This document shows, in pieces, positions 33,568 to 63,844 of a stretch of 64,000 nt of DNA. The notes under the pieces are model-generated. The model was given only the letters and a program-made list of their open reading frames with translations. It ran no database searches and had not been told where the DNA came from. Each line of letters begins with the position of its first letter. The stretch's first letter is position 1. The position numbers and the translations under genes are program-made. Location: assembly GCA_949358305.1 (NCBI GenBank), contig OX442314.1:44896581-44960580 (forward strand), read 5' to 3'. The DNA comes from Strigamia acuminata. Lineage: Eukaryota > Arthropoda > Chilopoda > Geophilomorpha > Linotaeniidae.

Positions 33568-34387
33568 TGTGGTGACCCAGTTGGATAAGTGTCCCCCCAG
33601 GGCGGATGCTTGTCCTCTGAGTCACTGTGATTGAAGAGTCGTTCCCCCCCGAGTTGGCTCCACCTCCCCATGGCAGGTGTGTGCCCCGAGGGGGAGGAAG
33701 CGGCTGATGGTCAGCCCCCATTGGTTGATCGCCGGCCCTTCACCCCACTGCATAAAAGGCTGTGTTTCCCGCCTAAAGTCAGAACTTACACAAACGACAC
33801 CAAGAACACAGCAACTACCTCACCGTCAGGCCAACTTCAACTACAAGTTAGGATTGATCGAGGATCGCTGAGTAAAGTGCAAACTGTAACTCTCACGAAG
33901 TCACTTGCGAGCTATTCCTGCGAAAGCACGAGAATAGCCCTTGTGAAATCACCCAGAATAATCGCCCAGACGATTATTCGCCGAAGTAAGTGTCCGAGTG
34001 CTTTGTAGGGAACCCCAAAGTTCCTAGACGAGGCCTCTGCGACGCTAAACAAACCCTAGACAACAGGCACGGATAGAAGACTCGAAAGAGCATTCCACCG
34101 CGTCCGTGAAGACGAATCCGTGACGAATTAACGACAACTCGAGACGCCGCCTTTGTTCCGCCGACCACGCGGAATCGACGACGCCATCTTGAGAAATCCT
34201 TTGTTCGACGCTGACCACGTCGACTCTAGAATTATTACTGAGTGTATTTTAAAGGCATAAAGCCTGGTGAATAAATTACCTGTTTATTTACATACATTTG
34301 GTATTCATTTGGGTATTTACATAATTGATCACAGGTAAAGTATTACACGTTAGCGCTATTTAAACCTATACCAAGTAGGACGCGACA
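33568..34387 (+). repeat. 5' LTR of element B (820 bp)
   Basis: It runs from TGTGGTGACC to GACGCGACA. A TATA-like CATAAAAG is at 33751-33758 and AATAAA at 34270-34275. A splice-donor-like sequence GAA/GTAAGT lies at 33986 between the two and could serve as the leader donor for a spliced ORF3 message. The 125-aa ORF across the LTR is identical in the other LTR and is not a gene. Confidence 0.95.
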
Positions 34388-34407: not shown

Positions 34408-34481
34408 TTAGAAATAAATCTCAAATCTGAACTTGTGATCTCTCAATAAGATAACCCAAATCGTAGAATTACCGAAAGAAA

Positions 34482-37400
34482 ATGTCAGACAAAGACGAGC
34501 AATCCACGTCTGAAACCGAGCAGAGAATGCCCGAGAAGGGAAAAAGGACCTCCGACTACCACCTGAGATCGGATGGTCCCGTCCCTGAAATGTCCGCAAA
34601 GGCGAAAGCCCGAGCGAATAAAAGGAGAGCGAAGGCGCAGAAAGAGGAGCAAGCTGCATCGCTCGCGGCCCTAGACGGGCCAGAGCGAGAGCGGGTTCCC
34701 TTGAATATGCAACCCTTCGAGGATACCGATCCGGAAGCCATAGAAAATCGAGAAGAAATTCGCGACGTATCGCCAGGACGAGTATCGATATTGATGACCG
34801 AGGAGACGAATGAAGCTCCGAAAATAACGGTCACGGTCGGCACGAACCCATCGCCACCCACGGCTCAGACGTCCGTGGAGCAAACCCCACGAAAAAACGA
34901 CGGCGGGACCCCGATAACCCCCCGAGTTACGGCGAGTCCTGCGGTTGTTTCCTTCGAGGTATCTCACCTAATTCGGTTGACACGGCAAGCTGCCCAACTG
35001 AAAGCGATGATAAACATTCCAGTAGGAACGTCAGTCTGGGAATCGATTACTCTACTCACTGACGCTATCTGCGCGGCACAAGCCCCGACGCCGGTCGCAA
35101 GACCAGCAGCGGAGACGCCCATGCCCCAGGTAACGCCCAGTGACACCGGAGGTTTCGCGCCAGACCCCAACCGGGCACTTCACCAATCCAGAGAGAAGGC
35201 CCGCGAAGAAGCCAGACAAGAAGCGACTAATCGCCAACGAAGACTGAGCGCAGAGCGGCGAGAACTCTGGAAGGAAGAGGAAGAAAGGGAGCAACGCGAA
35301 AGAAGAACCACCGAGAGAACAGAAAAACTGGTCCAAAAAATGAGGGAGGAACGAGAAGCTAAAATTCGAAAAGAATGGAACGCCACGGTGGAAGGGCGAC
35401 ATCGAGAAGCTCAAGAGTACGAGGACCAATTTCAAGCGCTCGTAGCTCAAAGAAAAGCAGAAAAGCTACAAATGTTGCGAGAAGAAGCCATTTTACAACA
35501 CCAAAAATGGGAAGAACAACATCGCGAGAGGTTGAGAGAAGAGGAAGCCAGAAAAGAAAAGGAACAGTTCCTGAAAGAGAAAGAGGAATGGGACCGAGTC
35601 AGATGGACCGAAGAGTACAAAGCAAAGAAACAAGCCATAATAGATGAGCAAAAAAGATGGGAAGCCGAAAACTGGGAGAAAGAAACAGAAAAGTTCCAAA
35701 AAGAGTACGAACAAGGTGTCTCGGGCAGGAAGAAAAGGGAAGAAAACCCGAAACGGAAGTCAGAACCCCCAAGCGGCTCTGATACCGACACAGGAGAAGA
35801 TGCAGCAAAGCCGGCAAAAACGGCAAAAAGGGGGAAATCTCAAAAGAGAGACGGATCGGTCCCAAAAACAAAGGACCGTCACCCCTCAAAAAGATCCGAG
35901 ACGGGAGCAGCCATCGACGCGTTACTCGAAAAGAAAAACGCAAATAAAAATCGGGAACGCCCCGAGAGCGAGGAAAACAGATGGCATTCTTTTTGCGAGA
36001 ACAACGACGGAGGGGAGCCGCCGCCATCCGAAGGCTCGAAACAGAAGAAGGCTGGCGGAGAGACCCCACCGAGAGGGCCGAGGTTTCACCCCCAAGGAGA
36101 TCCCTCCGAGCCCTCCGATTCGTCGGACGACGACCATCCGAGTCGACCGTCTACAGGAAGGAGTCAAGAAGGCAGCGATGGGCACCGGTCGAACCGGCCG
36201 AATGCTTCAGACCGCTCTTCCCGGAGCTCCAACCCTCGTTCAGAGGAAGGGAACTTTCAGGACTCATCTGGCCGACATTACACGATGTCTGAGCTAGGCC
36301 GAGCCCTGCTGAACTCTTTCAGAAGAGAAGGAATCGATCTAGGCCATCCAGGCGACGAACATAATCGCGCTGGAGAGAGGGTTAAGCGCAAATATGGCGT
36401 ACGAAACGAACCAAGCAGTGAAGCCACGGGTAACATCCGCTGGCAACACTATATTCAAACGCGATTTGACGGTTCGTGGAAGGCCGGAGACCGCTTCCTG
36501 GACGAAGTAATGCGTATCAAGAAAGCGACAAAAGCCACCGTCGCCGACATGCTAACCCACGGGCTAGTGGAGCTAACTACGGGGTCAGCTCGAGAATGGT
36601 ACCAGGGACTGAAAAACCCAACCTGGGACGATTTTCTCGTCCGTTTCGATCTCCGATACGGCGAGACTCCAGACGAGATCAGTAACAAATTACGGGGTCT
36701 ACGACAAGCCCCAGGAGAAACATTAGCCGACTACGACGCCCGAGCGAAACTCCTGTTTGCAAGAGCGCCGTACGAAATAAACCCCGCTGGTTTTACGATG
36801 ATCTTTTACGGAGGATTATCGGCCCACTCGCAAAGAATTCTGCTAGACATGCGTGCACCCCGCACTGGCGATTACCAAGATGTCAGTAACTATCTTCTAA
36901 CAAACACGTTAGAAATAGAACAGCGGTATTACGCCACTCTGCCCCCGGAAGAAGCTGACGCGCACGAGAAGCGGTTGCAGACGAGCGCCGAACGCCACAA
37001 GACCTCAGAAAAATTAATGAGGCCAAGTGAATATTTGAGCGGCATAATGAGTCTCACCGAAGCATCCTTCGGACGAATGCTGACGCCTAAAGCAGGCAGT
37101 ATTCTTCCAGCCAACCCGATAGCTGCCCCAAAGAAAGCACCGGCAGCGACGGCGATGCAGGTGACCTCGACGGACTCCACCCAGATGGAGAAAGTCGAAG
37201 AGACAACACCTCTCGCCACGGCTAAAGAAGAGGAGCCAGCATCGAGCGACGAGGAAGCCCTAAATGAGCACCTCGAAAACTTATCGACGGGATGCGACGA
37301 TCAAGGTCCCTATTTGCACCATGCACACCGGGCCTTGGCAATCACACAATTCAGAGCACACGTGCAAGCAACAAAAGCGAGAGGAGCATTGGGAGGAAAA

Positions 37401-37622
37401 AGACGATTCCCGACGCCCTTCGTCCCGAAAAAACCGGGATTCACTCCCACAGGGGATAAAAGTAACATCAAATGTTACAGCTGTGGAGAATACGGCCACT
37501 ACTCGGATAAATGTGAGAAAACCGTCAAAGAAAAGGACATCATGCAAACCATGATGAAAATGATGATGGAGTTAAGAACTGATCTGGCAAAAAACTTCCA
37601 AGCGCAGGCGTCGCCGAAATAA
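34482..37622 (+). CDS. gag: Element B gag, 1046 aa
   Basis: Structural protein of the particle. The N-terminus is disordered, with the motif DYHLRSDG near residue 25 that is also in C gag (DYHLRSGG). Residues of about 233-420 are a dense Glu/Arg/Lys run expected to form a long charged helix. A Ser/Pro/Arg-rich linker follows. The capsid-like region (from about 600) contains GNIRWQHYIQTRFDGSWKAG and SAREWYQGLKNPTWDDF, shared closely with C. A CCHC knuckle CYSCGEYGHYSDKC is at about 998-1011. The protein is much longer than usual gypsy Gags because of the N-terminal extension. It ends downstream of the frameshift site. Confidence 0.95.
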   Translation: MSDKDEQSTSETEQRMPEKGKRTSDYHLRSDGPVPEMSAKAKARANKRRAKAQKEEQAASLAALDGPERERVPLNMQPFEDTDPEAIENREEIRDVSPGRVSILMTEETNEAPKITVTVGTNPSPPTAQTSVEQTPRKNDGGTPITPRVTASPAVVSFEVSHLIRLTRQAAQLKAMINIPVGTSVWESITLLTDAICAAQAPTPVARPAAETPMPQVTPSDTGGFAPDPNRALHQSREKAREEARQEATNRQRRLSAERRELWKEEEEREQRERRTTERTEKLVQKMREEREAKIRKEWNATVEGRHREAQEYEDQFQALVAQRKAEKLQMLREEAILQHQKWEEQHRERLREEEARKEKEQFLKEKEEWDRVRWTEEYKAKKQAIIDEQKRWEAENWEKETEKFQKEYEQGVSGRKKREENPKRKSEPPSGSDTDTGEDAAKPAKTAKRGKSQKRDGSVPKTKDRHPSKRSETGAAIDALLEKKNANKNRERPESEENRWHSFCENNDGGEPPPSEGSKQKKAGGETPPRGPRFHPQGDPSEPSDSSDDDHPSRPSTGRSQEGSDGHRSNRPNASDRSSRSSNPRSEEGNFQDSSGRHYTMSELGRALLNSFRREGIDLGHPGDEHNRAGERVKRKYGVRNEPSSEATGNIRWQHYIQTRFDGSWKAGDRFLDEVMRIKKATKATVADMLTHGLVELTTGSAREWYQGLKNPTWDDFLVRFDLRYGETPDEISNKLRGLRQAPGETLADYDARAKLLFARAPYEINPAGFTMIFYGGLSAHSQRILLDMRAPRTGDYQDVSNYLLTNTLEIEQRYYATLPPEEADAHEKRLQTSAERHKTSEKLMRPSEYLSGIMSLTEASFGRMLTPKAGSILPANPIAAPKKAPAATAMQVTSTDSTQMEKVEETTPLATAKEEEPASSDEEALNEHLENLSTGCDDQGPYLHHAHRALAITQFRAHVQATKARGALGGKRRFPTPFVPKKPGFTPTGDKSNIKCYSCGEYGHYSDKCEKTVKEKDIMQTMMKMMMELRTDLAKNFQAQASPK
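37589..37595 (+). promoter_or_regulatory. -1 ribosomal frameshift site, element B
   Basis: In the gag frame GCA AAA AAC contains the slippery heptamer A AAA AAC, eight codons before the gag stop. The -1 frame is open from here into pol, so no separate pol start codon is needed. A stimulatory downstream structure was not demonstrated. Confidence 0.82.
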
Positions 37623-40600
37623 ATTCAGCTTCGTCTGCGCCAGCCGCGGAAATTAAAAAGAAGAAATATCACACTGGACCCGCAGGTCATGCCTTGGCAG
37701 AGGCACAGATCAAAGACCGCATACAGATCGTTCCGAAGAAGGAGGAAAAAGTGACGTTAACGAGTATGCAAGTGAGAACGAAACCGGAGGTCGACATGGA
37801 TTGGACGGACCTTCCGTTCAATCTGGAGGTTGAGCCCCAGACATTACGCGTATTTCACTGCAATGTCACGAAAGCACATTGCGAAACTCTGTGTATGCTG
37901 CCAGTGGAGATAGAAAACCAAAAATTGTTCGGTCTACTGGATTCAGGAGCGGATCGTTCATTCATATCCGAAGATATAGTAAAAGACTTGGATATTGGAA
38001 AGAAGGTGGCACAAGTGAACGCGAACGTAGAATTGCTCACCGCCAACGGCTACGTCAAGCCGAAGGGCGTAGTTCGCATCATGATCGACTGGACGGGGGG
38101 GAACCTGTCCCACCCCTTCATAGTCTTGCCATCCCACGACAAAGTATTCCTCCTAGGGATGGACATCATGGCGAAACTGAAAATTCAGCCAAACCCGATA
38201 ACCCGTTCATGGAACTGGATAAGTCCCGAGGGAGAACGGTCAGTCCCCGTAGTTCCCCAAAAATTACTGGACGAAGCCAAGGACAAAGAGGAATACGGAA
38301 GAGGATTGCGAAAATTCGTCCAAGATTACGATTTCGCAGCCTTCACTCTGGAATTACAGAGGAGTAACGTCGTGGACACCCTGGTCGAGGAGGCAGCACT
38401 GCGTGTTAACGAGGCATCGCTACTAAGGCGAGTGCTTCGAAAGCATGAAAGAATTCTGACCAAGACACCTGGTCGAACGACGGAAGCAACACACGAAATA
38501 GTCTTAACCACAGACAAGCCGATTCGAGTGCCTTACAAGGGGATGAACCCCCAGAAAAGAGACATCGTGACGCAAATGTGCCAAGACATGCTCGACAAGG
38601 GCATAGTAACGCAAGCCCTGGGCGAATACGCCATGCGGATCGTCCTGGTGATGCGTCCAGGCTCGGAACCTCGACTATGCATTGATTATCGCCCCCTGAA
38701 CGCGATAACGGTTATAGACCCGATTCAGATGCCGTCTATAGACTCGATCCTCCGGGAACTGAGCCCGTTCAAGTGGGTAACCACCATGGACCTGTCAAAG
38801 GGGTATTGGCAAGTGGAGCTAAAACCCGAAGACAAACTGAAAACGGCTTTCTACTCCCCGATAGGAAGACTAATGTTCAACGTGATGCCGTTCGGGCTTG
38901 TAAACGCCCCGAGCACGTTCCAGAAACTGATCGAAAGCGTGTTGGGAGATATGCTGCACGACTTCGTGTGGGCGTATCTCGACGACATCATAATAACGTC
39001 GGACACATTCGAAGAACATATAGACCACATCGATAGAGTGGTCTCTCGCCTAGCCAAGGCAGGACTCCACATCCATCCAGGGAAGAGCAAGTTTTGCAGG
39101 AAAGAGCTTGCCTTCCTAGGATATCGAATAGGAGTCGAGGGAATCGCGATTGACCCCGAAAAAGTCAAAGCAATAAACGGATTCCCCGCCCCCGAAGATA
39201 TAAAAGGTGTCCAGAGATTCATGGGCATGGTCAATTTCTTCGGCCGACTACTCTCTGGTCTGGCTGAAGTGGCCGCGCCTATAACGGATCTCTTACGAAC
39301 GGATAAAGAGTTTGAGTGGACGGTCCAGTGCGAGGCCGCATTTAGCACTATCAAGCAAATGCTGGCTGACGTCGAAAAGATGCCATTGCCGGACCTAAAC
39401 CGACCGTTCGTGTTGCACACCGACGCGAGTAAAATCGGACTGGGTGCAGCCCTTCTGCAGACCCACGTGTACAACGGAATCTCGCAAGAAGTACCCTGTA
39501 TGTTTATAAGCAGAAAAATACAGGGCGCGGAGAAAAATTATACGGCAACGGAACTAGAATGCCTAGCCGTAATTTGGGCAGTTCGGAAATTTCGCGACTA
39601 TCTGGAGTACACGAACTTCGAGGTTCAGACAGATCACCAGGCACTAAGCTGGTTGATGAAGCTCAAGGAACCCTCCGGCCGACTCGCACGATGGCAACTG
39701 GAGTTAATGGCGTGCGATATAACAATTACGTACCGCCCCGGGAAGTACAATCATGTGGCCGACGCCCTCTCGAGAGCCCCAGCCTCTGACCCCCAGGGAC
39801 CAGACGACGACGGCGAGGACGACACCCACCTCTTGTACTGCCCGACTCCACGGAGAATATGGCGTTTGCGAAAGGCGAACGAGCTACCAGTGATGGAGCC
39901 TGAAGATAGAACGTTTTGTGGTTTTTGGACTCGAACATACCAGCCAGCTGGGACAAACAATTCAACATCCGAAATTCAATCTCCGCCCCCCGGAGAAACC
40001 CACAAAACACTACTACGCGCCTTCACAGCAAAAATTGAAGAAAAAACACAATACGCTCCACCCACGAGACGTGAGTTCGTCGAACACCAGGCAGCAGACA
40101 CAAAATGTCAAATTATAACGCAATATTTGCTGAACGGCGAATTTCCGGAAGGGATGACAAACCCACACCGCCGGAAACAGTTCGTCAAAGAAGCAACAAG
40201 CTACCTCATAGATGATGAACTCCTGGTGAAATACCACCCGACGTTTCAAGATGACCTCAGCGGAGCGGGAAACTCGGTTAAAGTGGTCGTGCCGGCATCG
40301 CTGCACACCCGACTGTTGTGGCTGATGCACGGACACCCGCTCGCCAGCCATTCTGGCGTGGCGAGGACCCTTTATCGAGTAAAACAACTTTTCTTCTGGC
40401 CGGGCGCGCGGCAAAAGATAACGAAATTTATCCGACACTGCCCCCGGTGCCAAGCGTGCAGACCGCGAGATAAAGTGGCCAGAAACGCCATGTCTCTCGG
40501 ACCCTACGCACCGTTTGACTGCTTAAGCATAGACTTGATGGGCCCCAAGCCCACAACGGGAAACAAGAACATGTATATTCTCGTAATTATGGACGTGGCC

Positions 40601-41725
40601 ACCCGATGGCCGGAGCTGTACGCCCTCGCGAAGCCCTCGGCTGAAAACATAGTCGAGTGCCTTTACGACGTGGCAATGCGATTTGGGTTTCCCAGAAAAC
40701 TCATTTCGGATAACGGCCCCCAATTCCGATCGAGAATATATAAGGACTTCTGTAGAAAATTTAAAATGGATGCATCAAACACCTCCACGTATAATCCTCA
40801 GACAAACCCAGTCGAGAGATTAAATAAGGACATAAAATATGCGCTGACAGTATTCACCGATATTCACAATCGATGGGACGAATACCTGCGAGAAATCGCT
40901 TTCAGCATTCGCTCAACCGTGTCAAGAACACGCGAATTCTCACCGGCGTACCTCAACTTCGCCCGCGAATTAAGGATGCCATGGGACCCACGCGTTGCCG
41001 AAGCTGTTAACGTATTAGACCCATCGAGCCCACACGAGTACGTGTGCCGGTTGGAACAGACTATATCCGACACATACCAGCATATGATGGCGCATATTTT
41101 CAACATGAGAGAAAGAATCGCAGATAAAGAAGGCGATCTCGCTTTCGCGAACTTTAAAGTGAATGATCTAGTGTGGAAGGAGGCACACACGTTGTCCAAT
41201 GCAGCGAGGGGCATCGCCGCAGGTTTAGCCGACAAGAGGGACGGTCCCTATGTAATTGTGGCCGAACACGGCGGCAACGCATACCAACTACGCCGCTTAG
41301 AGGACAACAAAAATTTTCAGTCGATACATGGCCGAGATTTAAGGCCATATCTGCCAGAGTTTCCCCAAGAAATCTGGCTGGAAGGTCAGACACACAGCGG
41401 CCAAGGGGGCACCGTGGTCGACACGTTCCAAAAAACAAATGAAGCTGAAAATATAGCGGAGGACGAGGATGAATTCTTCGACGCCGAATCTCCGGCCGAC
41501 GAGGCTCCAGCACAGCCGGAGCAAGCAATTTCGGAGAGGGAGGAAGCAGAAGAAAGTACTTCTGAAATGGAAAATAAAAAAATTAGTAATGAGAAAAATG
41601 CCAACACATCGGAGATGAACGAGCAAGTAGAGTCACGATCTACGAGCACGTCGAAAATCAACCTTCGACCACGACGAAGCAATAATCCGTTCATTCGGGA
41701 CGGCAAAGTCGTGGGGAAGAACTAA
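37595..41725 (+). CDS. pol: Element B pol polyprotein
   Basis: Entered by -1 frameshifting; the residues below count from 37694. The protease motif LLDSGADRS is at 81-89 (Asp-Ser-Gly, as in many gypsy proteases), the RT motif AYLDDIIITSD has YLDD at 428-431, RNase H HTDASKIGLG is near 575, and the integrase zinc module HGHPLASH plus CPRCQAC near 878-925. Integrase catalytic D (SIDLMGP, about 945), D (ISDNGPQF, about 1005) and E (NPVERLN, about 1040) are present, with a GPY module (KRDGPYVIV). The acidic tail ends with NLRPRRSNN. All active-site residues are intact. It is closely related to C pol. Confidence 0.96.
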   Translation, partial: LPSAGVAEINSASSAPAAEIKKKKYHTGPAGHALAEAQIKDRIQIVPKKEEKVTLTSMQVRTKPEVDMDWTDLPFNLEVEPQTLRVFHCNVTKAHCETLCMLPVEIENQKLFGLLDSGADRSFISEDIVKDLDIGKKVAQVNANVELLTANGYVKPKGVVRIMIDWTGGNLSHPFIVLPSHDKVFLLGMDIMAKLKIQPNPITRSWNWISPEGERSVPVVPQKLLDEAKDKEEYGRGLRKFVQDYDFAAFTLELQRSNVVDTLVEEAALRVNEASLLRRVLRKHERILTKTPGRTTEATHEIVLTTDKPIRVPYKGMNPQKRDIVTQMCQDMLDKGIVTQALGEYAMRIVLVMRPGSEPRLCIDYRPLNAITVIDPIQMPSIDSILRELSPFKWVTTMDLSKGYWQVELKPEDKLKTAFYSPIGRLMFNVMPFGLVNAPSTFQKLIESVLGDMLHDFVWAYLDDIIITSDTFEEHIDHIDRVVSRLAKAGLHIHPGKSKFCRKELAFLGYRIGVEGIAIDPEKVKAINGFPAPEDIKGVQRFMGMVNFFGRLLSGLAEVAAPITDLLRTDKEFEWTVQCEAAFSTIKQMLADVEKMPLPDLNRPFVLHTDASKIGLGAALLQTHVYNGISQEVPCMFISRKIQGAEKNYTATELECLAVIWAVRKFRDYLEYTNFEVQTDHQALSWLMKLKEPSGRLARWQLELMACDITITYRPGKYNHVADALSRAPASDPQGPDDDGEDDTHLLYCPTPRRIWRLRKANELPVMEPEDRTFCGFWTRTYQPAGTNNSTSEIQSPPPGETHKTLLRAFTAKIEEKTQYAPPTRREFVEHQAADTKCQIITQYLLNGEFPEGMTNPHRRKQFVKEATSYLIDDELLVKYHPTFQDDLSGAGNSVKVVVPASLHTRLLWLMHGHPLASHSGVARTLYRVKQLFFWPGARQKITKFIRHCPRCQACRPRDKVARNAMSLGPYAPFDCLSIDLMGPKPTTGNKNMYILVIMDVATRWPELYALAKPSAENIVECLYDVAMRFGFPRKLISDNGPQFRSRIYKDFCRKFKMDASNTSTYNPQTNPVERLNKDIKYALTVFTDIHNRWDEYLREIAFSIRSTVSRTREFSPAYLNFARELRMPWDPRVAEAVNVLDPSSPHEYVCRLEQTISDTYQHMMAHIFNMRERIADKEGDLAFANFKVNDLVWKEAHTLSNAARGIAAGLADKRDGPYVIVAEHGGNAYQLRRLEDNKNFQSIHGRDLRPYLPEFPQEIWLEGQTHSGQGGTVVDTFQKTNEAENIAEDEDEFFDAESPADEAPAQPEQAISEREEAEESTSEMENKKISNEKNANTSEMNEQVESRSTSTSKINLRPRRSNNPFIRDGKVVGKN

Positions 41726-42105: not shown

Positions 42106-45100
42106 ATGGCCGATCGACGCAACCCACGATTAGAGCCGAGCGCATCGTCGAGAGACGAGAGCGACGGCCTAATCGTAAATGCAGAAGAAGATGAGAATTG
42201 GGACGAACAACCGCCGTTGCAGGTAAATTAGTGTGATTTCCCCAGAGAAATCACATAATTCTTTGAATCTGTTGCATCCAACCCAGATTGGAGCGTGACT
42301 TGTGACTGATATATTTCTTTCTGTTTTATTGTTGATTTAAGGCTGGCTAAAAACCCGAGAGTGGACCCAGATTCACCTCGGAGTCAAGGCCGCCAAAAAA
42401 CTAGAACAAAGGAAGTGTTCGCGGAATGGCGTCGTGGCAAACCAAAACCAAAACTAAAGGTTTTTCTTTCTTTTAAATTTAAACATCGTAATAAATTAAA
42501 ATACGATTAGAGTTAAAATAAAAAAGTTTAACGTAAGAAATTAAAATTTAACGATCGGTTTTGCCTGCGACCCCTTCCAAAAAAGCGGATCACCTGAGTT
42601 CAAAAGTAGTGTTGGATCAGCGCTACGACGGCGGAGATCATCGCAGAACTGCGAAACAAGAAAATAAGACCGACGGCCGCAACAAAAGAAAGGAGTTGCT
42701 GCCACCGTCGATCTTGAGCATATTTCTGATCCCCATCGTTAACTGGGAGTTATTATATTAATCTTGTGATCTAAAATTATTCAGGTCGACCCGCTAGAAT
42801 CGTGGGACGCCCTGCCTCCGACGGCGTCAACCGCCAACAACATCTTTCGCGGAGCCCTGCCGATTTACCTGCGGCAGGCCTATCCTGCAGAGACCAGCGC
42901 CTGGAAAATCCGATTGATGTATTCCAGGACCCTCGAGGAAAAATTCGAGCGATCAAAAACGCTGGTCGAGTGCATGACGAAGGAGATGAGGGAGCGAGTG
43001 GGGCCGCGGATCCCACCCGATGCGGATCCGCCGAGCCCCGTTTACTCCGGGTACCTGGAAGAGGCTTACCCAGGCACGGTGGCCGAGCTGCACACCTCCC
43101 ATAGGTGGAGCGAGGCCCCGACCTTGGCAGCCCGCCAGAGAATAGTGGACGACGAGATCAAACGCTTAAAGCGCACCGAGACTCACGGAGTAACCCGAGT
43201 TCTCGAGAGAAACGGTTTCTCCCCCGAAGAAATCCGTAGATGGCTTCGCGACATCGAAGAAGATCATCTGACACCCAGATGGATACCGCCGGCGAATTTT
43301 ACGGCCACGCAGTCTGAGATGTGGCAGTTATACCACGCTGGTATCCTGGGAAGTCGCCGCCATCACAGAAGATCGAAGCGTCCGGCGGAGTCCGCCCCAC
43401 GCGGACCCGCACGAAGAAGACAGGCCGTCTCCCCAATAGAGGCCGGCCCGTCAACGAGCCGCGACTACCGCAGCCGCTCGAGCAGCTCCAGTTCCCGAAC
43501 TCGAGTTGTCGTGCGCTCGGAGTGTCGCCGAGTAGTAACGCTCGAGCCTGCCTCGCCAGACGACGCGCGGGCTGAGCGAACAGTCGAATCTTCCGCCCAC
43601 TGGGCTGCGAGGACCGAGACACACCAAGATCGAGGAAAGAAAAGATCCTCGTTGTTCATGGCGATTACCACACAGTCGTCAGATCAATCCTCGTCGCGAC
43701 GAACCGTCTCATCACACCAGAGACCGAATTCTCCGACGGACGTCCCCCAGAGGACGGCCCAACGAAGATCCGTCGCAGCCAGCACCCGGAGGAATCGAAA
43801 GCGCAAAGTACGTCAGAAGTTGCGAGCACAATCCCTGATAGCTAAGGGATTAGAGAAGGAGCGAGAGATGGCCGCCGCGAAACGGTCCGAACCCCAGAGT
43901 CTCGGACCCACGGCTGGACCGTCCAGGCGCCAAGCAGAGATTGATTTGGGAGAGTTGACGGAAGAGCAAATGTCCCCAGATGAGTCGGACAAAGATGGGC
44001 CGGTTACAAAACAGGATCTGGCCGTAGCATTGAAGAACGCCTTCCGAGGATACGCGGCCAACCGGCCGTCGGGCTCAACACCGGCTGTGCCCACCGCGCT
44101 TGTGCCCCCACAAGTGCAATCGCGATGGCCGCCACTCCTCGAGGGTACAAACCCAGCCGTGACCGCTTGGACCCCTCCCCGGATGATTCCGGTGGGGGAT
44201 CCAGCTCCGAAGCGGGTCAGATACGATAATCTACCCGGGCTGGGCCGTCCACCGTCACCCCCAACGCCACGAGTGTGTCGACCTTATCGCAACGCCGAAT
44301 GGTACGACCAGCGAGAGATGGACGCTCGATGCCGGCGTGAAGCGGCCTATCCCCCACTCAGCGAGCTACAAGAATATCTGGCCGAATACGAGAACCCCGC
44401 GATTGCCGAGTTGGCCATACGACAGGCCGACGCCGCCCAAACCCACCACATCAATTGGGCGATCGAACAGATGCGGACGCTGTCACAACAATTCAGTGGC
44501 AATCCGGACCGCGCTCACCCCTGCCATCGGAGCAGTTTGAATTTGGCAGTGACGAACGTCATGGCCCAGCTGCTGTCCCTGGGCGTCTTCTTGGACAGTC
44601 GGCAGGCTATGGCGGCCTGGACAATCGTCGACCGTGAGGGAGTTCACCTTCCTCGGGCGTTGTACCAGGTATGGGCCGGATGGACTCCTGAGCCCGCCTC
44701 GCTGCGCTTCGACCTGGCCAGGAATACGGAGAACCCAGGCCTGCAGTTTTCGAAGATGCGTTCGTTGGCATTCCGCTACCGGAGCCCCGGAGTCCACCCT
44801 TCCTTGTTGCGAACAATTCGGGAGGCTCCGGAGATACCGGGAACGACAGCGAGCCTCCCACAGGCCATCGAGACCGCCCCCCCAGAGGCGGCGGTCCAAC
44901 CATACATACCGACCCCAAAGCCGGTATTCCCAAAGGAGAAGCGGTATGCGAATCGACCCAAATTGATTCCGAAGCGCTCCAACCGAGGACCGCGAACTCC
45001 TCCGCTGCCCTCTCCTTCGCCACCAGCGGCAGAGCTGGCCGCTCTTACAACAGAGCCGGCTACGCCACCGTTGGAGAGTCCAATGGAGATTCCACTTCCT

Positions 45101-45571
45101 CCATCGCCTCCGCCGCCCCCAGCAGCGCAGCTTTATTTGAGGCTGGGAGTGGAATACCCCTTCCTTCAGATGTCGGAGTTCACGCGACAACGCATCATTG
45201 ACTCCGATGATCACGGCGAGTCGGTCCTCAAATGGCTGAACAGAGAGGCCCGATCTACCATGGACGCCGTCTTCCATCGCCGAATCTTGCGAGCCCACCG
45301 GAAACCCGGATCGAGCGCCGAGTCGCGAAGGATCCGGCTCGTTCCCGACCGATTCCCGGCATCCACCCGGATTTGGATCCACGAACGTACGGGACTGATT
45401 GGCGAGCCGGTCGGCGGTCACCCGCAGTACTTCATCAACGAGCGACAGAATCCTGCGGATCTGACAACCTCTCTGCCCCCGGATTTACCACCGCCGCCCC
45501 CGGCAGTGCCACCAGTGATCCTCCGCCCATGCAGAGGAGTGCTGCCGGCTCTTCGCAGAGGAGAGCGATAA
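42106..45571 (+). CDS. Element B third ORF (ORF3), spliced, unknown function
   Basis: Exon 1 (42106-42222, 39 codons) starts MADRRNPRLE, is acidic (AEEDENWDEQ) and ends in TTGCAG/GTAAAT, phase 0. Exon 2 (42785-45571) starts after ATTATTCAG, also phase 0; its first 43 codons have no ATG yet align with exon 2 of C (WDALPP with WGALSP; FRGALPIYLRQ with YRGVLPDFLRR). The protein has an N-terminal part with EMWQLYHAGILG, a basic Arg/Ser linker, a middle part (WYDQREMDARC; RQAMAAWTIVDREGV), a proline run and a C-terminal part (VLKWLNREAR, HRRILRAHR, IWIHERTG, INERQNPADL). No signal peptide or membrane segment is seen. The 562-bp intron contains further short open basic stretches (about 42347-42459 and 42561-42700) that might be alternative exons. 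Confidence 0.82.
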
Positions 45572-45615: not shown

Positions 45616-46435
45616 TGTGGTGACCCAGTTGGATAAGTGTCCCCCCAGGGCGGATGCTTGTCCTCTGAGTCACTGTGATTGAAGAGTCGTTCCCCCCCGA
45701 GTTGGCTCCACCTCCCCATGGCAGGTGTGTGCCCCGAGGGGGAGGAAGCGGCTGATGGTCAGCCCCCATTGGTTGATCGCCGGCCCTTCACCCCACTGCA
45801 TAAAAGGCTGTGTTTCCCGCCTAAAGTCAGAACTTACACAAACGACACCAAGAACACAGCAACTACCTCACCGTCAGGCCAACTTCAACTACAAGTTAGG
45901 ATTGATCGAGGATCGCTGAGTAAAGTGCAAACTGTAACTCTCACGAAGTCACTTGCGAGCTATTCCTGCGAAAGCACGAGAATAGCCCTTGTGAAATCAC
46001 CCAGAATAATCGCCCAGACGATTATTCGCCGAAGTAAGTGTCCGAGTGCTTTGTAGGGAACCCCAAAGTTCCTAGACGAGGCCTCTGCGACGCTAAACAA
46101 ACCCTAGACAACAGGCACGGATAGAAGACTCGAAAGAGCATTCCACCGCGTCCGTGAAGACGAATCCGTGACGAATTAACGACAACTCGAGACGCCGCCT
46201 TTGTTCCGCCGACCACGCGGAATCGACGACGCCATCTTGAGAAATCCTTTGTTCGACGCTGACCACGTCGACTCTAGAATTATTACTGAGTGTATTTTAA
46301 AGGCATAAAGCCTGGTGAATAAATTACCTGTTTATTTACATACATTTGGTATTCATTTGGGTATTTACATAATTGATCACAGGTAAAGTATTACACGTTA
46401 GCGCTATTTAAACCTATACCAAGTAGGACGCGACA
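45616..46435 (+). repeat. 3' LTR of element B (820 bp)
   Basis: It is the same length as the 5' LTR, and no difference was found by eye. It ends GACGCGACA, followed by the AAGC duplication. The TATA-like motif is at 45799-45806. Confidence 0.96.
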
Positions 46436-46516: not shown

Positions 46517-46518
46517 CT

Positions 46519-50371: not shown

Positions 50372-51370
50372 TGTGGTGACCCGACTGGGGTGGGGCACGA
50401 AGAGTTTCTCTCGTGGCCTACATACGGGTAAAGAAGGGGAGTCGCACGCGCGCCTCCCTTCCCTCAGAGCATTGACATCCAGTCAATGGACGGGCGTCTG
50501 CCCTGGGGGAGTGGGGGAGATTCGTCTTCTCCACTATTGGGTGGCTTTAGTCACCTGTCACCCCCCGCTTTGTGCAAAGGAATTCGCCTTGCACTGAGCG
50601 GGGAGAACCAACACAAAAATCAACCAAGATACACGTAAAAGCCAAACGTCCTAAAACGATCAAGCCTAAGTACAAAGACTTCAGGAGTGACCTAGGACAA
50701 GGGACTTTCAACGTGAGTACGATTGATTTGTGTTAACCTCCGCAGAGTAACCTGCGAAACAAGATTACCACACTATTTTAGCAAGCCAGCTAGAAATAGT
50801 AAACCTACTCCAATTTAGCGAGTTGTGCAGACAAACGGTCGCACAAGCCTAAATTGCAGTAACCACGACGAGCGTTCCCGCCGCTGTGTGTATCGCCGGG
50901 AACCACCAAGCGTCCGCCGCTGTGTGATCGCCGGACACCTAAACAAAACCCTAAACCTAGACAACAGACCAGAAGTAAGACCTTTCAGGCATTCACTCGC
51001 GCCCGACCAGCGTGAGCCCGAAGGACCGAACGAGAAACGTGAGACGAGGACGCCATTCATTGCCACGCCGGCCCAAGACGACACCACGTTGCCACGCGGA
51101 CGCCATCTTGGATCCAGAGCGCCAACAAAGGACGACCTCGACCAGTTTCCCGCCAACTTCACACACCCCAACCTTTTACCTTTTTATTCCCTTACATATT
51201 TTATCCCTTTTACCTGTACATTCCCGTATAATAAATACATTTATTATATTTACCATTTTACATTGTTTGCCGTTTCACGTTATTTGGGTAACCGCTTGAT
51301 TAAAGCGGTATTGCGAGATTAGAGAGTGACTCATACCACGTATCAGCGACAGACCGAGTTGAGCGCGACA
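50372..51370 (+). repeat. 5' LTR of element C (999 bp)
   Basis: It runs from TGTGGTGACCCGACTGG to GAGCGCGACA. AATAAA is at 51230-51235. A splice-donor-like AGAA/GTAAGA lies at 50975, just after CCTAGACAACAGACC, similar in placement to the donor-like site in the B LTR. The 165-aa ORF in this LTR recurs identically in the other LTR and is not a gene. Confidence 0.95.
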
Positions 51371-51390: not shown

Positions 51391-51438
51391 CGATTTAAAC
51401 GACTCGAATAGAACTTGAGATCATTTTCATACCCAAAA

Positions 51439-54400
51439 ATGGCAGACAATATCCGAGTAACGGATTCCGACTCCGACGCAAACAAGAGAGCCGGTAGCCG
51501 TAAAGGCGCCGACTATCACTTGCGATCTGGAGGTCCCTTACCCAAAGCCTCAGCGCACGAAGCGAGGCAAAAACGGCGCAAGCCTAAACCCGATCGCAGA
51601 AGCGCATCAGAGGCATCGCACCCGTCTCGTTCCGAGACGAGGCCGCGATTGGACGAGACAGAGCGGGGTGAAGAGCAATCTCACTCCAAACTGCCGCGTT
51701 CTAACCGTGACGGCGAGACGAGCGGAAACGAGGTTTTATCCCGTAACCCATCGCCTCGTCTAACGCACGACACCGAGGTGGGCAGTCCGAAAGCGGCGTC
51801 TCCGATACAAAAGACGGCCTCAAATACGACAGCTAATTCGGCACTAAACACGCCAATTACGCAAAGCCGCCCAGCTTCGGTCAGGTCTGAAGGACACAAG
51901 TCCAATGCGTCAAATACTGAGCGTGTTCCGAGCCAGCCTTACAGCGTCTCGGCCACATTGGTTGACACGATGCAGTTGGCACAGGCAGAAGGTGTACGAT
52001 ACACTCTGCCAACGGGAAAAATAACTGTGTACGAAACATTACAAATCGTACGTGCAGCTTTAAGAGCGCACAGGTTATCCCCAGAAATCACCGTTGTTGA
52101 AGGCGCATACGCTCAACAAATGGTAGATTCCGCTCAATTCGAAGCGGATGCCGAGAATGAGGCCCGACAAGCCATCCGCGAGAGAAAGCGGAAGCTGGCG
52201 GAAAGAGAAGCGCGAGCTCTCGAGTACGGCAAATCCCAGCGCGTTCCAACCACTCCAGAAGAGGTGGAAATAGTTGATCGAGCCTTACATGCACATCGTT
52301 ATGCATTCCGTTCTCAACAAGAAGCTGAACAAGCTTTCATGACTAGGCTGCAACGAGACAAACCAAAATCCGTTCGCAAGCCAGAAGTTAGCTCGTCCGA
52401 GTTGTCCGACGAGAGCGTAGAAGGCGACCCGAAGCGCACGCCGAAGGTCAGCCCTAAACCCGAGCGAAAAAAGGAAGTGCCAGTCACTCCACGCAAACGG
52501 GAGGTCTCGACCGAACAACGCGTTCGACCTCGCATGATGGCGTTAGACGATAACACTAACAACGCTATCAACCGATTAATAAATGCGAACAACGCGCGTC
52601 GTAACGAAGAACAGACTCACACGAGCCGACAACGCGACGACCCGCGGGGTAGCGACTGGCCACAGCCGGTGCCCATCCTCAAAGACGACGGACCTTCGAG
52701 AAAACATTCCGAAGACCGCACATCGTCACGAGAGGAACGTCAACGCGAAAGAGGACAGCAACAGTATCACTACGGAAACAGTGGTTCGTCGTCGGATGAA
52801 CTGGAGTCGAATGTACCCAGTCATCACGATTCGGAGAGAGGTTCCGGAGAGAGACGAAGGGAAAGAGAACGCGATGAACGCAGGGAAAGGGAACGTGACG
52901 ACCGTCGTAGGGGCCGGAAAGAGTCAAACTCTTCACGGCGCAACCCGCCACGCCGCTCACCGTCTCCCGACCCCAGCTCCGACCCCTCGTCCAACGACGG
53001 CAAACGAAATGATAAATCAAGTAATCGCCGGAAGAGATCCAACTCTCCGCGCGATAGAGAGAAACGACGTCGATCGGAAAATAGCGACCACCGACGGGAG
53101 GAGTTTCAGGACCTTCCCCGACAAAGCGCGTTTACCGATTCGACGGGTCGGCAGTATACGATGGGAGAGCTTGGAAGAGCCCTGCTTGGCTCGTTAAAAG
53201 CCGAAGGAATCGATCTGAGCAAACGAAATGATCGTAATCGTAACACTGGTGACCGCGTAAAGAAAAAATACGCTGTCTCCCGACGTGACACCATGAGTGT
53301 TACCGGGAATATTAGGTGGCAGTTTTATATTCAGAACCGTTTCGACGGGTCATGGAAAGCGGGAGATCGCTTCCTTGACGAAGTAATTCGAATTAAGACT
53401 GCCACTAAAGCCACCGTAGGAGACATGCTCACCCACGGTATTGTCGAGCTAATGACAGGCTCGGCACGTGAGTGGTACCAAGGATTGAAAGGCGTCAATT
53501 GGGACGACTTTTTAATGAGATTCGACCTGCGCTACGGCGAGACACCCGAAGAGGTGAGCCGAAAGATGCGAGGTCTTCGCCAGATGCCTGGTGAAACCAT
53601 AATGGATTACGACATTCGCGCCAGATTGTTGTTCGAAAAAGCCCCGATGGAATTCCATGCCACGGGATTCAACCTTTTCTTTCTCGGCGGTTTGTCGGAG
53701 TACTCGCAACGGGTGCTACTTGAAGAAAGGGCACCGACAGGAGGTAGCTACGAAGAAATGAGCGCCTTCCTGTTCGAGAACACGATAGATATCGAGAAGA
53801 GGTATTATTCCGCTTTACCAGAAGCGGAGAAAGCAGCGACCGCAAACCGTCTCAAGTTGAGTGCGGAAAGATATGGGGCGACAGATAAAATAATGCGCCC
53901 TACTGAATATCTTAGCGGTATAATGGAACTGGCAGAAGCTAGCGTTGGTTTACAAATAAAAAACAAACTGACATCCATGCTGCCTTCCAACCCTTTGGCC
54001 GCCCCTAAAAAGGCACCGACAGCGTCAGCCATGCAAGCGACACTGGAGGAGGTCAAGGAGGGGGAGGAAGCCGGACAAGATGCCGGAAAATCAGACGAAA
54101 AAGAAGAAAAAGACGATTATTCGACGGACGAAGAAATACGAAGCTATCGCGATACCTTATCAACGGGTTGCGATGAAGAAGGACCGCTAGTACATCTCAT
54201 CCATCGAGATAGAGCGGTAGAAGAATTTCGCGCCAGGTTAAAACCAAATGCCGGCCGAATTCCGAAGTATTTTCGGAAAAATTACACGCCACCGTCGAAA
54301 GGAGACTCTGAAAAAAAGAAATCGACTGAAGCCCCAAGAGACAAATCAAATATTCGTTGTTTCAAGTGTAACCAACCGGGTCACTATTCCAATGAGTGCC

Positions 54401-54519
54401 CAAGAACAGCGAAAGAAGACGCTAAGTTTGACGCAATAATGAAGCAGATGGCAGAGATTAAACTCGCCATGGCAAAAAACGAGTCAAAAAACGAGTCAGC
54501 GCAGGCGGCGAAGAAATAA
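51439..54519 (+). CDS. gag: Element C gag, 1026 aa
   Basis: The start is the ATG of MADNIRVTDSDSD. The N-terminal part is disordered with the DYHLRSGG motif. Residues of about 414-555 are rich in Arg, Ser, Glu and Asp (RERERDERRERERDDRRRGR, then RRSPSPDPSSDPSS), resembling the RS domains of splicing proteins. The capsid-like part contains GNIRWQFYIQNRFDGSWKAG and SAREWYQGLKGVNWDDF, close to B. The CCHC knuckle is CFKCNQPGHYSNEC. The last residues AKNESKNESAQAAKK contain a duplicated frameshift site. The protein assembles the particle and packages RNA. Confidence 0.95.
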   Translation: MADNIRVTDSDSDANKRAGSRKGADYHLRSGGPLPKASAHEARQKRRKPKPDRRSASEASHPSRSETRPRLDETERGEEQSHSKLPRSNRDGETSGNEVLSRNPSPRLTHDTEVGSPKAASPIQKTASNTTANSALNTPITQSRPASVRSEGHKSNASNTERVPSQPYSVSATLVDTMQLAQAEGVRYTLPTGKITVYETLQIVRAALRAHRLSPEITVVEGAYAQQMVDSAQFEADAENEARQAIRERKRKLAEREARALEYGKSQRVPTTPEEVEIVDRALHAHRYAFRSQQEAEQAFMTRLQRDKPKSVRKPEVSSSELSDESVEGDPKRTPKVSPKPERKKEVPVTPRKREVSTEQRVRPRMMALDDNTNNAINRLINANNARRNEEQTHTSRQRDDPRGSDWPQPVPILKDDGPSRKHSEDRTSSREERQRERGQQQYHYGNSGSSSDELESNVPSHHDSERGSGERRRERERDERRERERDDRRRGRKESNSSRRNPPRRSPSPDPSSDPSSNDGKRNDKSSNRRKRSNSPRDREKRRRSENSDHRREEFQDLPRQSAFTDSTGRQYTMGELGRALLGSLKAEGIDLSKRNDRNRNTGDRVKKKYAVSRRDTMSVTGNIRWQFYIQNRFDGSWKAGDRFLDEVIRIKTATKATVGDMLTHGIVELMTGSAREWYQGLKGVNWDDFLMRFDLRYGETPEEVSRKMRGLRQMPGETIMDYDIRARLLFEKAPMEFHATGFNLFFLGGLSEYSQRVLLEERAPTGGSYEEMSAFLFENTIDIEKRYYSALPEAEKAATANRLKLSAERYGATDKIMRPTEYLSGIMELAEASVGLQIKNKLTSMLPSNPLAAPKKAPTASAMQATLEEVKEGEEAGQDAGKSDEKEEKDDYSTDEEIRSYRDTLSTGCDEEGPLVHLIHRDRAVEEFRARLKPNAGRIPKYFRKNYTPPSKGDSEKKKSTEAPRDKSNIRCFKCNQPGHYSNECPRTAKEDAKFDAIMKQMAEIKLAMAKNESKNESAQAAKK
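54474..54492 (+). promoter_or_regulatory. Doubled -1 frameshift site, element C
   Basis: Two in-phase heptamers A AAA AAC lie at 54474-54480 and 54486-54492, separated by GAGTC. Slippage at either enters the same open pol frame. Confidence 0.8.
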
Positions 54520-57500
54520 CTTCTCGACCGTCTGCGCTATTCATGAAGAAGAAGGGGTTTAACAAAGGGTTCGATAAACCGCCACCAGTCAAAGAAATGG
54601 GTAGTGCCATAGCTAACGCCCAAATTCAAGACAGGGCCAACAACGCTTTGCAGGTTATTACCGCAAACGCCGAGGCTGAGGCGGAAGAACCGAACCTACT
54701 GCTTGAAGAATTACCTCAAGTAGTCGAAGACACAGAAGAATTTCGTGTTTTCATGTGCAACGTGGCGGTCGAATATACCAGCCGCCTATGTATGCTGCCC
54801 ATGACAATAGAACGCGAAAAAATTATGGGACTATTAGACTCGGGAGCGGATCGCTCGTTCGTTTCCGAAGACATAGTAGCATCATTGGGTCTCACCGATA
54901 AGATAAAAGGCGTTAATAAAAATGTACGTCTAAAAACCGCCAACGGAATGGCGCGTCCAAAAGGAGTTATATTATTGACCATGGAGTGGCTCGGAGGGGT
55001 AGAACAGCACCCTTTCCTGGTCCTGCCCACGTGCGACAGAATTTTTCTGTTGGGCTTAGACCTCATGGCGTCAATGGAAATACAACCAAATCCAATAACG
55101 AAATCTTGGAATTATATCAGAAATGATAGAGAAAGACCCGCAATTGTCGTGCCACCAGCTCTTATCAAAGAAGCGGCCGACAAGACACAGTGGGAGAAAG
55201 GCCTAAAGAAATTCGTTCAAGACTACGATTTTAAAGCATTCGTAGCAGAATTGCAACGGGACAATGTAGTGGAAACGCTTGTCGCCGACGCCGCTTTAGA
55301 ATTAAACGAAGCGGCAGCCCTACGAAGGGTCCTACTTAAATATGAGGGGATCCTGTCGAAAAAACCGGGCCGAACGAATAGGGCTATTCACGAGATTAAA
55401 TTGACGGATAATAAACCTATACGAGTTGCGTATAAGGGAATGAATCCGCAAAAACGTGAAATAGTGCAAAAAATGTGCCAAGAAATGCTAGACAGTGGCA
55501 TTGTCTCCGAGGCCCAGGGAGAATACGCGACGCGAGTTGTGCTCGTGATGCGCCCGGGCTCGGATCCGCGTCTATGCATTGATTACCGCCCATTAAACGC
55601 GGTGACAGAGATAGATCCCATACAGATGCCGTCTATCGAATCCATTTTGAGAGAGCTTAGCCTCTTTTCTTGGGTTACGACGATGGATCTGTCAAAGGGA
55701 TACTGGCAAGTTGAGATGAGGCCAGAGGATAAGCTAAAAACAGCATTTTACTCGCCAATTGGACGGTTGATGTTCAACGTCATGCCGTTTGGTTTAGTGA
55801 ATGCTCCCAGTACCTTTCAGAGACTAATCGAAAGCGTATTGGGTGATATCCTGCATCAGTTTGTGTGGGCATACCTAGATGACATAGTTATTGCCTCTAA
55901 AACATTCAAAGAGCACATTGAGCACATCGACCAAGTGCTCACCCGGCTGGCAAAAGCTGGGTTACACGTTCACCCGGGCAAGAGCAAGTTCTGTCGAAAG
56001 GAGCTTGCCTTCCTGGGTTATCGCATTGGAGTCAATGGGTTAGCTATTGGCCCCGAAAAAATCGATGCGATTAATCGTTTCCCACCACCCGAGGACGTTA
56101 AAGGTGTCCAACGGTTTATGGGAATGATAAATTTCTTCGGCAGGTTGCTACCGGGTCTAGCTGAAGTGGCAGCCCCAGTTACCGACCTCCTGAAGAATGA
56201 AAATGAATTTGTATGGTCAAAAGAGTGCAACATCGCATTTAATGCGATAAAGAGGATGCTGACGGAAGTCGGCGTAATGCCTCTACCCGACTTAAACCGG
56301 CCGTTCATATTACATACGGACGCCAGCAGAGTTGGGTTAGGAGCGGCGTTGCTCCAAACACACGTGCGCGACGGAGTCAAACAAGACCTGCCGTGCATGT
56401 TTATAAGTCGCAAACTCCAAGGCGCTGAAAAAAATTACAACGCCACAGAGTTGGAGTGTTTGGCAGTTGTGTGGGCTATAAGGAAATTCAGAGATTATCT
56501 CGAATATACCAAATTTGTAGTCCACACAGATCATCAAGCGTTACAATGGCTGATGAAATTAAAGGAGCCAGCCGGTCGACTAGCCAGATGGCAGTTAGAA
56601 CTGATGGCATGCGACTTGACCATTCAATACAAGCCCGGCAAATATAACGTCGTGGCTGACGCTCTGTCACGGGCACCAGTGTCAGATCCTATCGACGCTG
56701 ACGATGATGGCGAGGATGATTCCCGCATCATTTACTGCCCGACGAGTTGTCACCGTTGGGATTTAAGGAAAATGAATGAAATTCCTACCGCGTCTCCGGC
56801 AGATGTAAAATTCTGTGGATTCTGGACGCGGTTATACCAACCAGCTGCTGACAATTACCCAGATGCAAAGAAGGAATTTAAGCTAGAGCGGAGAATAAAT
56901 GACCCGCTTCTAAGCGCCTTCCACGCTCATGTCGGCAAGCAAATGCGAAGCAATCCCCCGACAAGGGAGGAAATAATTGTGCAACAAAAATTAGACAAAA
57001 AATGTCAGGACAGAGCTAGATTCGTACTGACAGGAAAATATCCGCCCAACTTAACCAGAAGGCAGAAGCGTCGTTATGCACACGAATCCATAGATTACCT
57101 ATTGGATGACGGCCTTTTGGTGAAACATCACCCAAATCACCAAGATGACTTGAGTGAATCGGACACCGCAGTAAAGGTAGTAATACCTGCTTCCTTAATC
57201 GGTCGCGTGCTGTGGTTGTTACACGGGCACCCGCTTGCGAGCCATGCGGGAGTAAGCAGAACACTCTATCGTGCTACACAGCTTTTTCACTGGACAGGGA
57301 TGAAAAAAGACATTGCTCTTTTTGTCCACCAATGTCAGCGATGCCAAGCGTGCAAGCCGAGGAGTAAATCACCATTCGAAACTATTTTCTTAGGGCCTTA
57401 CGCGCCTTTTGATTGTTTAAGTGTCGATGTGATGGGCCCAAAACCCGTTACGGGAAATAAAAATGCGTACATTATCGTAATAATGGACGTGGCGACTCGT

Positions 57501-62845: not shown

Positions 62846-63844
62846 TGTGGTGACCCGACTGGGGTGGGGCACGAAGAGTTTCTCTCGTGGCCTACATACG
62901 GGTAAAGAAGGGGAGTCGCACGCGCGCCTCCCTTCCCTCAGAGCATTGACATCCAGTCAATGGACGGGCGTCTGCCCTGGGGGAGTGGGGGAGATTCGTC
63001 TTCTCCACTATTGGGTGGCTTTAGTCACCTGTCACCCCCCGCTTTGTGCAAAGGAATTCGCCTTGCACTGAGCGGGGAGAACCAACACAAAAATCAACCA
63101 AGATACACGTAAAAGCCAAACGTCCTAAAACGATCAAGCCTAAGTACAAAGACTTCAGGAGTGACCTAGGACAAGGGACTTTCAACGTGAGTACGATTGA
63201 TTTGTGTTAACCTCCGCAGAGTAACCTGCGAAACAAGATTACCACACTATTTTAGCAAGCCAGCTAGAAATAGTAAACCTACTCCAATTTAGCGAGTTGT
63301 GCAGACAAACGGTCGCACAAGCCTAAATTGCAGTAACCACGACGAGCGTTCCCGCCGCTGTGTGTATCGCCGGGAACCACCAAGCGTCCGCCGCTGTGTG
63401 ATCGCCGGACACCTAAACAAAACCCTAAACCTAGACAACAGACCAGAAGTAAGACCTTTCAGGCATTCACTCGCGCCCGACCAGCGTGAGCCCGAAGGAC
63501 CGAACGAGAAACGTGAGACGAGGACGCCATTCATTGCCACGCCGGCCCAAGACGACACCACGTTGCCACGCGGACGCCATCTTGGATCCAGAGCGCCAAC
63601 AAAGGACGACCTCGACCAGTTTCCCGCCAACTTCACACACCCCAACCTTTTACCTTTTTATTCCCTTACATATTTTATCCCTTTTACCTGTACATTCCCG
63701 TATAATAAATACATTTATTATATTTACCATTTTACATTGTTTGCCGTTTCACGTTATTTGGGTAACCGCTTGATTAAAGCGGTATTGCGAGATTAGAGAG
63801 TGACTCATACCACGTATCAGCGACAGACCGAGTTGAGCGCGACA
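62846..63844 (+). repeat. 3' LTR of element C (999 bp)
   Basis: It has the same length as the 5' LTR, and no difference was found by eye. It ends GAGCGCGACA, followed by the AGCT target duplication. Confidence 0.96.

Follow-up and report, generated by a model that had tools for sequence, protein, structure and literature searches.

A family of apparently spliced, non-envelope third genes in Ty3/gypsy elements of the centipede Strigamia acuminata

Three Ty3/gypsy retrotransposons (elements A, B, and C) in a 64,000-nucleotide stretch of the Strigamia acuminata genome, hereafter called the window, each carry a large third gene of one family between integrase and the 3' LTR. Comparison of genome copies indicates that this gene is kept intact by purifying selection between lineages and, judging from its conserved splice sites, that it is apparently expressed by splicing. 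The protein shows no convincing envelope features, and we tentatively propose that it acts in the nucleus on the unspliced RNA of the element.

Organization of the elements and of their third genes

Element B spans positions 33568-46435 and is bounded by two 100% identical LTRs of 820 bp (33568..34387 and 45616..46435), with a 4-bp target duplication, AAGC. Its large gag frame (34467..37622) contains a weak zinc-knuckle match near the C-terminus, which is under the curated cut-off (PF00098, E 0.0044), and its pol frame (37583..41725) encodes protease, reverse transcriptase, RNase H, and integrase according to Pfam and matches the Ty3 Gag-Pol with an E value of 2.7e-105. Element C (50372-63844) has 100% identical LTRs of 999 bp (50372..51370 and 62846..63844), a 4-bp target duplication, AGCT, a gag frame with PF03732 and PF00098 over cut-off (51412..54519; 53% identity to B gag over 450 aa), and a pol frame (54462..58610) with 62.7% identity to that of B over 1385 columns. 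Element A is truncated by the start of the window, so that its pol enters at base 3. All three elements lie on the plus strand, and their pol frames are 48-63% alike. The pol order protease-RT-RNase H-integrase (in B) and the LTRs running from TG to CA with a short target duplication (in B and C) are those of Ty3/gypsy elements (Metaviridae), to which A, B, and C belong.

The third gene of B consists of an acidic exon 1 (42106..42222) that contains DENWD and has an in-frame TAA three codons 5' of its ATG, an intron (42223..42784, GTAAAT..TTCAG), and a long exon of 928 codons (42785..45571) comprising an N-terminal domain, a basic linker, a middle domain, a proline-rich linker, and a C-terminal domain. 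In C, an acidic exon 1 also containing DENWD (59088..59180) is followed by an intron (59181..59977) and a long exon (59978..62806). Two short exons precede the long exon of 759 codons in A (2712..4991): the first (2199..2247) has the ATG, and the second (2314..2441) carries a basic KRKR cluster and then an acidic stretch; the intron before the long exon occupies 2442..2711. The exons join in phase 0 at all junctions but 2247/2314, where a codon is split. The coordinates and frames given for these genes in the initial annotation were correct. Its description of the long exon as lacking an ATG holds for A and B and fails for C, which has one at 59978. An ATG at this place is also found in lineage E, represented by a single locus (L043) with a third protein that shares 66% identity with its C counterpart, and likewise in the unrelated third gene of element D described below.

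The third proteins of B and C can be aligned in three separate blocks of 164, 215, and 107 aa, with identities of 46%, 31%, and 41%, respectively (best E 4.7e-42), those of C and A in one block (32% over 114 aa, E 4.8e-15), and those of B and A over 101 aa (26%, E 2.4e-6) and again, close to the N-terminus, over 43 aa (E 3e-4). These BLAST-type blocks bear out the proposal that the three genes form one homologous family. The conserved parts are the N-terminal domain, the middle domain, for which only the B-C similarity is significant, and the C-terminal domain, which is common to all three (62345..62692 in C). A set of motifs had been described as shared throughout; similarity to A is significant for the C-terminal domain and the short N-terminal match, whereas ELHQL and GQALA, the A counterparts of EMWQL and RQAMA.W, align in the multiple alignment only. 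Among the matches listed with the C-terminal domain as a query, 41 of 150 resemble the C domain at 78-80% and may, on the strength of this similarity, belong to lineage E. At one further locus (L048, 1254-7376), pol and the third gene are fused in a single frame of 2041 codons, apparently through loss of the DNA between two short, similar stretches, one close to the end of pol and the other in the linker of the third gene.

Conservation of splice sites and coding sequence

Copies of the third genes were listed from the 237.5-Mb host genome by protein score, hence with a preference for intact copies. The 116-residue queries gave at least 150 scored places each, shortened frames included, so that family sizes are lower bounds. 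Frames free of stops were found in 49 of the 49 listed copies of B, 47 of 48 for C, and 58 of 59 for A (154 of 156 together). We examined 30 of the 49 listed B copies and 12 of the 48 listed C copies; the diverged lineages were retrieved with the C-terminal domain query alone.

The initial annotation had joined a short acidic exon to the long exon in each element, and this comparison supports all four junctions. Both splice sites of junction 42222/42785 were unchanged in 30/30 B loci. At 59180/59978, the GT and AG were kept in 12/12 C loci, and lineage E (one locus) has a homologous exon 1 with a donor as well as the acceptor. Junction 2441/2712 was kept in both of the diverged A-like loci (L045 and L046), and at 2247/2314 the ATG, the 49-nt length of the first short exon, and the donor GTAAGTAATTTTTCTG were kept in 3/3 A-lineage sequences, with a frame that continues over the junction in all three, as read by eye from the DNA. 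Exon 1 and its donor were at the expected place in E, L045, and L046; the piece retrieved for L047, too short to span an intron as long as that of C, showed no exon 1.

The pattern of changes is that of a coding sequence. Exon 1 of B was identical in 27 of 30 loci, the two variants (in 2 loci and 1 locus) differing by at most one residue. Among the 12 C loci, indels relative to the reference copy were multiples of 3 in 13/13 cases in the long exon and were absent from exon 1, versus 1/41 in the intron and 1/46 in the spacer, these events not being independent. Of the variants in the C long exon, 168 were synonymous and 58 nonsynonymous, the latter including a single stop. Between long exons of different lineages, dN/dS was 0.124 (C-C2), 0.166 (C-E), 0.148 (A-A45), 0.141 (A-A46), 0.092 (A45-A46), and 0.142 (A-A44); in 100-residue windows (C-E and A-A46), it was mostly 0.06-0.23 and rose to 0.36-0.62 in less conserved stretches, two saturated C-E windows giving no ratio. 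The B-C and B-E pairs are close to synonymous saturation. The 30 B loci taken alone had 12 synonymous and 20 nonsynonymous changes (pN/pS 0.57), a value that speaks against the regulatory function proposed below; selection is hard to see among the B copies because they are so alike.

RNA structure in the introns

The intron of A contains a conserved RNA structure with a core at 2540-2618. We aligned 11 introns of this lineage (A and 10 loci; 282 columns, several rows beginning a few bases inside the intron). Over the 79 core sites, L045, L046, L049, and L051 differ from A at 5, 4, 4, and 8 positions, respectively, and the whole intron diverges from that of A by 0.034-0.045 in four of the loci and by 0.146-0.176 in the other six; synonymous divergence of the neighboring long exon is 0.48 (A-L045) and 0.50 (A-L046). 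Covariation was evaluated on the RNAalifold consensus minus its outermost five-pair helix, in which one pair is disrupted in two sequences and another in a single sequence. In this consensus, 98.7% of the cells are paired and four pairs are changed on both sides. The number of double-change cells was 19, compared to 9.2 in shuffles (0/500 as high) and 0-2 in slid controls. The number of double-change pairs was not above that in shuffles (392/500 reach the same number), and the stems of the core hardly vary and so carry no covariation evidence.

The whole introns of A, B, and C fold with z scores of -6.76, -4.97, and -7.48, respectively. A scan of A, B, C, and host stretches in 250-nt windows gave the A intron a mean z score of -6.0 (2 windows) and A pol one of -4.4 (16 windows); the introns of B (4 windows) and C (6 windows) averaged -1.9 and -2.3, no lower than in their own gag and pol. 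Structured introns as a general signature were thereby ruled out for B and C. Since A pol is nearly as structured as the A intron and the B and C introns are unexceptional, the A intron stands out for its conservation, joined by some covariation, rather than for how strongly it folds. The alignment thus points to an RNA structure in the A-lineage intron that is conserved and in part covarying; present in unspliced RNA only, it is described here for the first time. Rfam gave no match at gathering score anywhere in the window; around the A intron, five matches far under that score were all on the opposite strand.

The conserved block of the A intron might instead serve at the DNA level, as an internal promoter built on TATAAAA and CACGTG, an explanation that concerns the intron part only and that we consider somewhat unlikely. 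TATAAAA is present in 10/11 of the aligned introns and GTCACGTG in 11/11. Nevertheless, the double changes that preserve pairing occur at four intron positions, none of them inside that block, and an RNA started there would miss the start-bearing exons of A.

The end of the C intron (59858-59977) is open in the frame of the long exon and encodes a hydrophobic run up to the ATG. This frame is open in 12/12 C copies and has stops in E and L047. A signal anchor in an unspliced C product was rejected as a candidate, given these stops and the overlap of the run with the pyrimidine tract.

Properties of the third protein

None of the eight members of the third-protein family that were scanned matched a Pfam family above chance; matches to TFIID subunit 9 (E 0.094) and ASXH (E 0.13 and 0.093) were not significant. 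PDB sequences contained no significant relative, none of the 7986, 7990, and 7997 scored candidates from a set of 5.8 billion proteins reached E<=1, and tblastn against IMG/VR found no relative of the third protein (54 pattern stretches) or of B pol (2 stretches).

An AlphaFold model of the C long exon built on 8 rows had a mean pLDDT of 48.8 and was preferred to an earlier one (3 rows, mean pLDDT 40.7), which was dropped. Residues 21-160 were modeled with pLDDT values of 66-82 in most ten-residue blocks and of 50-60 at 81-100, and a basic helical hairpin was predicted at residues 291-320 (pLDDT 76-78). The best-modeled part is the helical middle domain (residues 531-650, 61568..61927), with 75-87 in 11/12 ten-residue blocks and 54 in the remaining one. 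The C-terminal domain was poorly modeled, and low-confidence proline-rich stretches set the predicted helical domains apart. The middle-domain model had no confident fold match among PDB and BFVD structures. The sequence searches thus yielded no relative in any of the collections covered.

The long exons are basic, with net charges of +10 (A), +25 (C), and +36 (B), and the short acidic exons have charges of -7 to -12 (A counted from 2352). The second short exon of the A lineage contains KRKR, KRRR, and KRKR in its three sequences, a cluster that we take to resemble a nuclear localization signal motif, and the C and E long exons contain RKRKRSK. An arginine-rich motif was discarded, since arginine/lysine clusters of this strength are expected from composition: 1000 shuffles of A, A45, B, C, and E reproduced them 63 to 373 times. 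Cysteine makes up 0.6-1.2% of the residues, and no Cys cluster is conserved in the alignment of the A, B, and C lineages.

Hydropathy of the long exons peaks at 1.65 in B (residues 585-603), at 1.39 in the homologous segment of C, and at no more than 1.0 in the whole long exon of A. The B value lies around the usual membrane threshold; it is not shared by the homologues, and the segment falls inside a predicted helical domain. On inspection of the sequences, the spliced N-termini are acidic and have no hydrophobic run. The lack of envelope features noted in the initial annotation was therefore confirmed as far as a membrane anchor is concerned.

Proposed function and alternatives

An accessory function is supported by the purifying selection between lineages and by the stop-free state of nearly all listed copies. 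The initial annotation had suggested a new accessory function: the accessory role is strengthened by the selection data, the nature of the function is still a matter of interpretation, and novelty is limited by the CERV protein and by other types of non-envelope ORF3. CERV belongs to Cer1, a gypsy/Ty3 element of Caenorhabditis elegans; in the account of PMC10309623, it is made from spliced RNA and required for export of the genomic RNA, a subject also treated in PMC3315495.

The elements studied here may face the same problem. Spliced element RNA would be translated into a large, non-membrane, probably nuclear accessory protein, and the unspliced genomic RNA, required for gag-pol and for packaging, would retain the conserved introns. 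Because it keeps these introns, the element would need a route for unspliced RNA past splicing and nuclear retention. The third protein could act in the nucleus on element RNA and promote export or use of the unspliced form, like CERV for Cer1, and the RNA structure of the A-lineage intron, which only unspliced RNA contains, would be a candidate binding site. Since CERV solves this problem, we rank first, by analogy in gene position, apparent splicing, and type of protein, the tentative proposal that the third protein is a nuclear regulator that enables the use of intron-containing genomic RNA. We count the basic clusters of A, C, and E, the predicted helical domains, the conserved splice sites, the coding signature of the exons, the low dN/dS, and the conserved A-lineage intron in its favor. 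Against it, the short exons of B and C have no KRKR, K[KR]x[KR] occurs once in C and not in B, the basic clusters do not exceed shuffled composition, and strong folding is not peculiar to the introns. A stricter version, of which we are quite doubtful, would be a two-part switch evolved independently of lentiviruses and Cer1, in which the large nuclear protein encoded by spliced RNA would recognize a conserved RNA fold within the intron of its gene and would thereby bind and export genomic RNA in its unspliced form alone.

The nuclear-signal-like clusters, the acidic exon, and the many recent copies would also suit a nuclear protein that counters host silencing or that serves the LTR as a chromatin or transcription factor, and a precedent for an accessory protein in a subnuclear compartment is described for sORF1 of Drosophila 412 (PMC11952523). 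With no DNA-binding or other known domain in the Pfam scan, such a role seems rather unlikely. We regard as unlikely, too, a structural or particle-associated protein, that is, a second Gag-like or matrix-like component assembling with capsid, to which the predicted helical domains, the long proline-rich linkers, the basic linker, and a size close to that of Gag would be suited: comparison with the gag alignment by hhalign gave E 0.93, and in BLAST, none of the five pairings tried between a third protein (A, B, or C) and the gag of B or C reached E 0.01. A common fold could escape such comparisons; a duplicate of gag was rejected for want of profile similarity. A degenerate or unrecognized envelope or fusion protein, which the location after pol, the B hydropathy peak, and the open hydrophobic frame before the C ATG might suggest, is highly improbable in view of the acidic N-termini, the less hydrophobic homologues of the B segment, its place in a predicted helical domain, and the stops and pyrimidine tract at the C intron end.

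To our knowledge, the protein responsible for the nuclear exit of unspliced RNA from intron-containing LTR retrotransposons is known in few cases. If the third protein is a nuclear regulator of this kind, it would represent a second, unrelated, and abundant protein family for export of unspliced RNA, carried by elements with identical LTR pairs, and the intron of its gene would supply a candidate RNA target. The export question would then be testable in an arthropod, and such regulators would seem to arise repeatedly.

Relation to known systems

As described in PMC10309623, the CERV gene resembles the third gene of A, B, and C in being a frame between pol and the 3' LTR with a product that is not env-like. 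Its message is spliced, as that of A, B, and C appears to be, and its protein consists of folded domains on flexible linkers, an architecture predicted for the third protein here. CERV is reported there to have no obvious homology beyond nematodes, and in our searches the A/B/C protein was likewise without homology outside its own host group. The same source describes CERV as a protein of 517 aa whose first exons are in the frame of gag, with a Cys-rich C4-like loop in the M domain and a G-protein-like domain. Here, in contrast, the host is not a nematode, the start-bearing exons follow pol, no Cys cluster is present, and no fold was matched with confidence. In B, the one element for which this can be said, sharing of the gag frame is absent: exon 1 has its own ATG after pol, with a TAA three codons before it and no AG between. 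We do not claim membership in the CERV family, and the likeness, drawn from descriptions, is one of gene position, apparent splicing, and type of protein.

The Rev/RRE system of lentiviruses is alike in idea, since a protein made from spliced RNA acts on a structure unique to unspliced RNA (as outlined in PMC10309623); it is unlike in that the A/B/C protein is many times larger, and that RNA binding, an export signal, and multimerization are putative for the latter. Bdelloid LTR retrotransposons also have non-envelope third ORFs following pol, which PMC5408684 assigns by homology or motifs to esterase/lipase, DEDDy exonuclease, or membrane types, whereas the family described here matches no Pfam model above chance. 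The sORF1 and sORF2 products of the Drosophila MDG1 group are, in the description of PMC11952523, accessory proteins of envelope-less insect elements, sORF1 being subnuclear; they differ in their size of ~70-110 aa, their position 5' of gag, the unspliced full-length transcript, and the membrane segment of sORF2. A spliced, non-envelope gypsy gene in third position (CERV, PMC10309623) and other types of non-envelope ORF3 (PMC5408684) are thus already on record in these sources. In the open-access literature, judged mostly by titles and the beginnings of abstracts and with Repbase outside its scope, there was no recognizable description of the A/B/C family, the nearest reports being PMC5408684, PMC11952523, and PMC12440569.

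Element D and other features of the window

A fourth element, D, lies on the minus strand (21014-48268) between LTRs at 21014-22764 and 46518-48268 that are 99.7% identical, with the target duplication GTTT, and is interrupted by B, nested within it in the opposite orientation. Its pol is 36% like that of B and 33% like that of A. D has a third gene of its own, a frame of 519 codons (23511-25028, minus strand) with a Cys-rich stretch, CPFC..CGWCC..CPNC..CWAHCPKC, and an acceptor-like CAG directly before its ATG at 25028. No similarity to the A, B, and C third genes was found. Of 83 copies of this Cys-rich gene listed from the genome, 77 are stop-free, so that the genome has no fewer than two common kinds of non-env third gene, unrelated to each other. 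Position after pol alone is a poor ground for an env label on the third ORF of a gypsy element.

The window also holds two fragments of host genes on the minus strand, one of an amiloride-sensitive sodium channel (DEG/ENaC; 6929-7504, PF00858, E 7.8e-10) and one with a bromodomain (11743-12000, PF00439, E 1.6e-5). In the genome, the cuticle domain Chitin_bind_4 gave 54 matches, and the N-terminal domain of nematode cuticle collagen gave none, a weak negative because its control was silent as well; together with the two fragments, these matches are in keeping with an arthropod. A near-perfect inverted repeat at 13276-14502 has 475-nt arms that are 99% complementary and separated by a 12-nt spacer, and tandem arrays of 20-bp and 21-bp units are located at 17523-17858 and 15898-16107, respectively.
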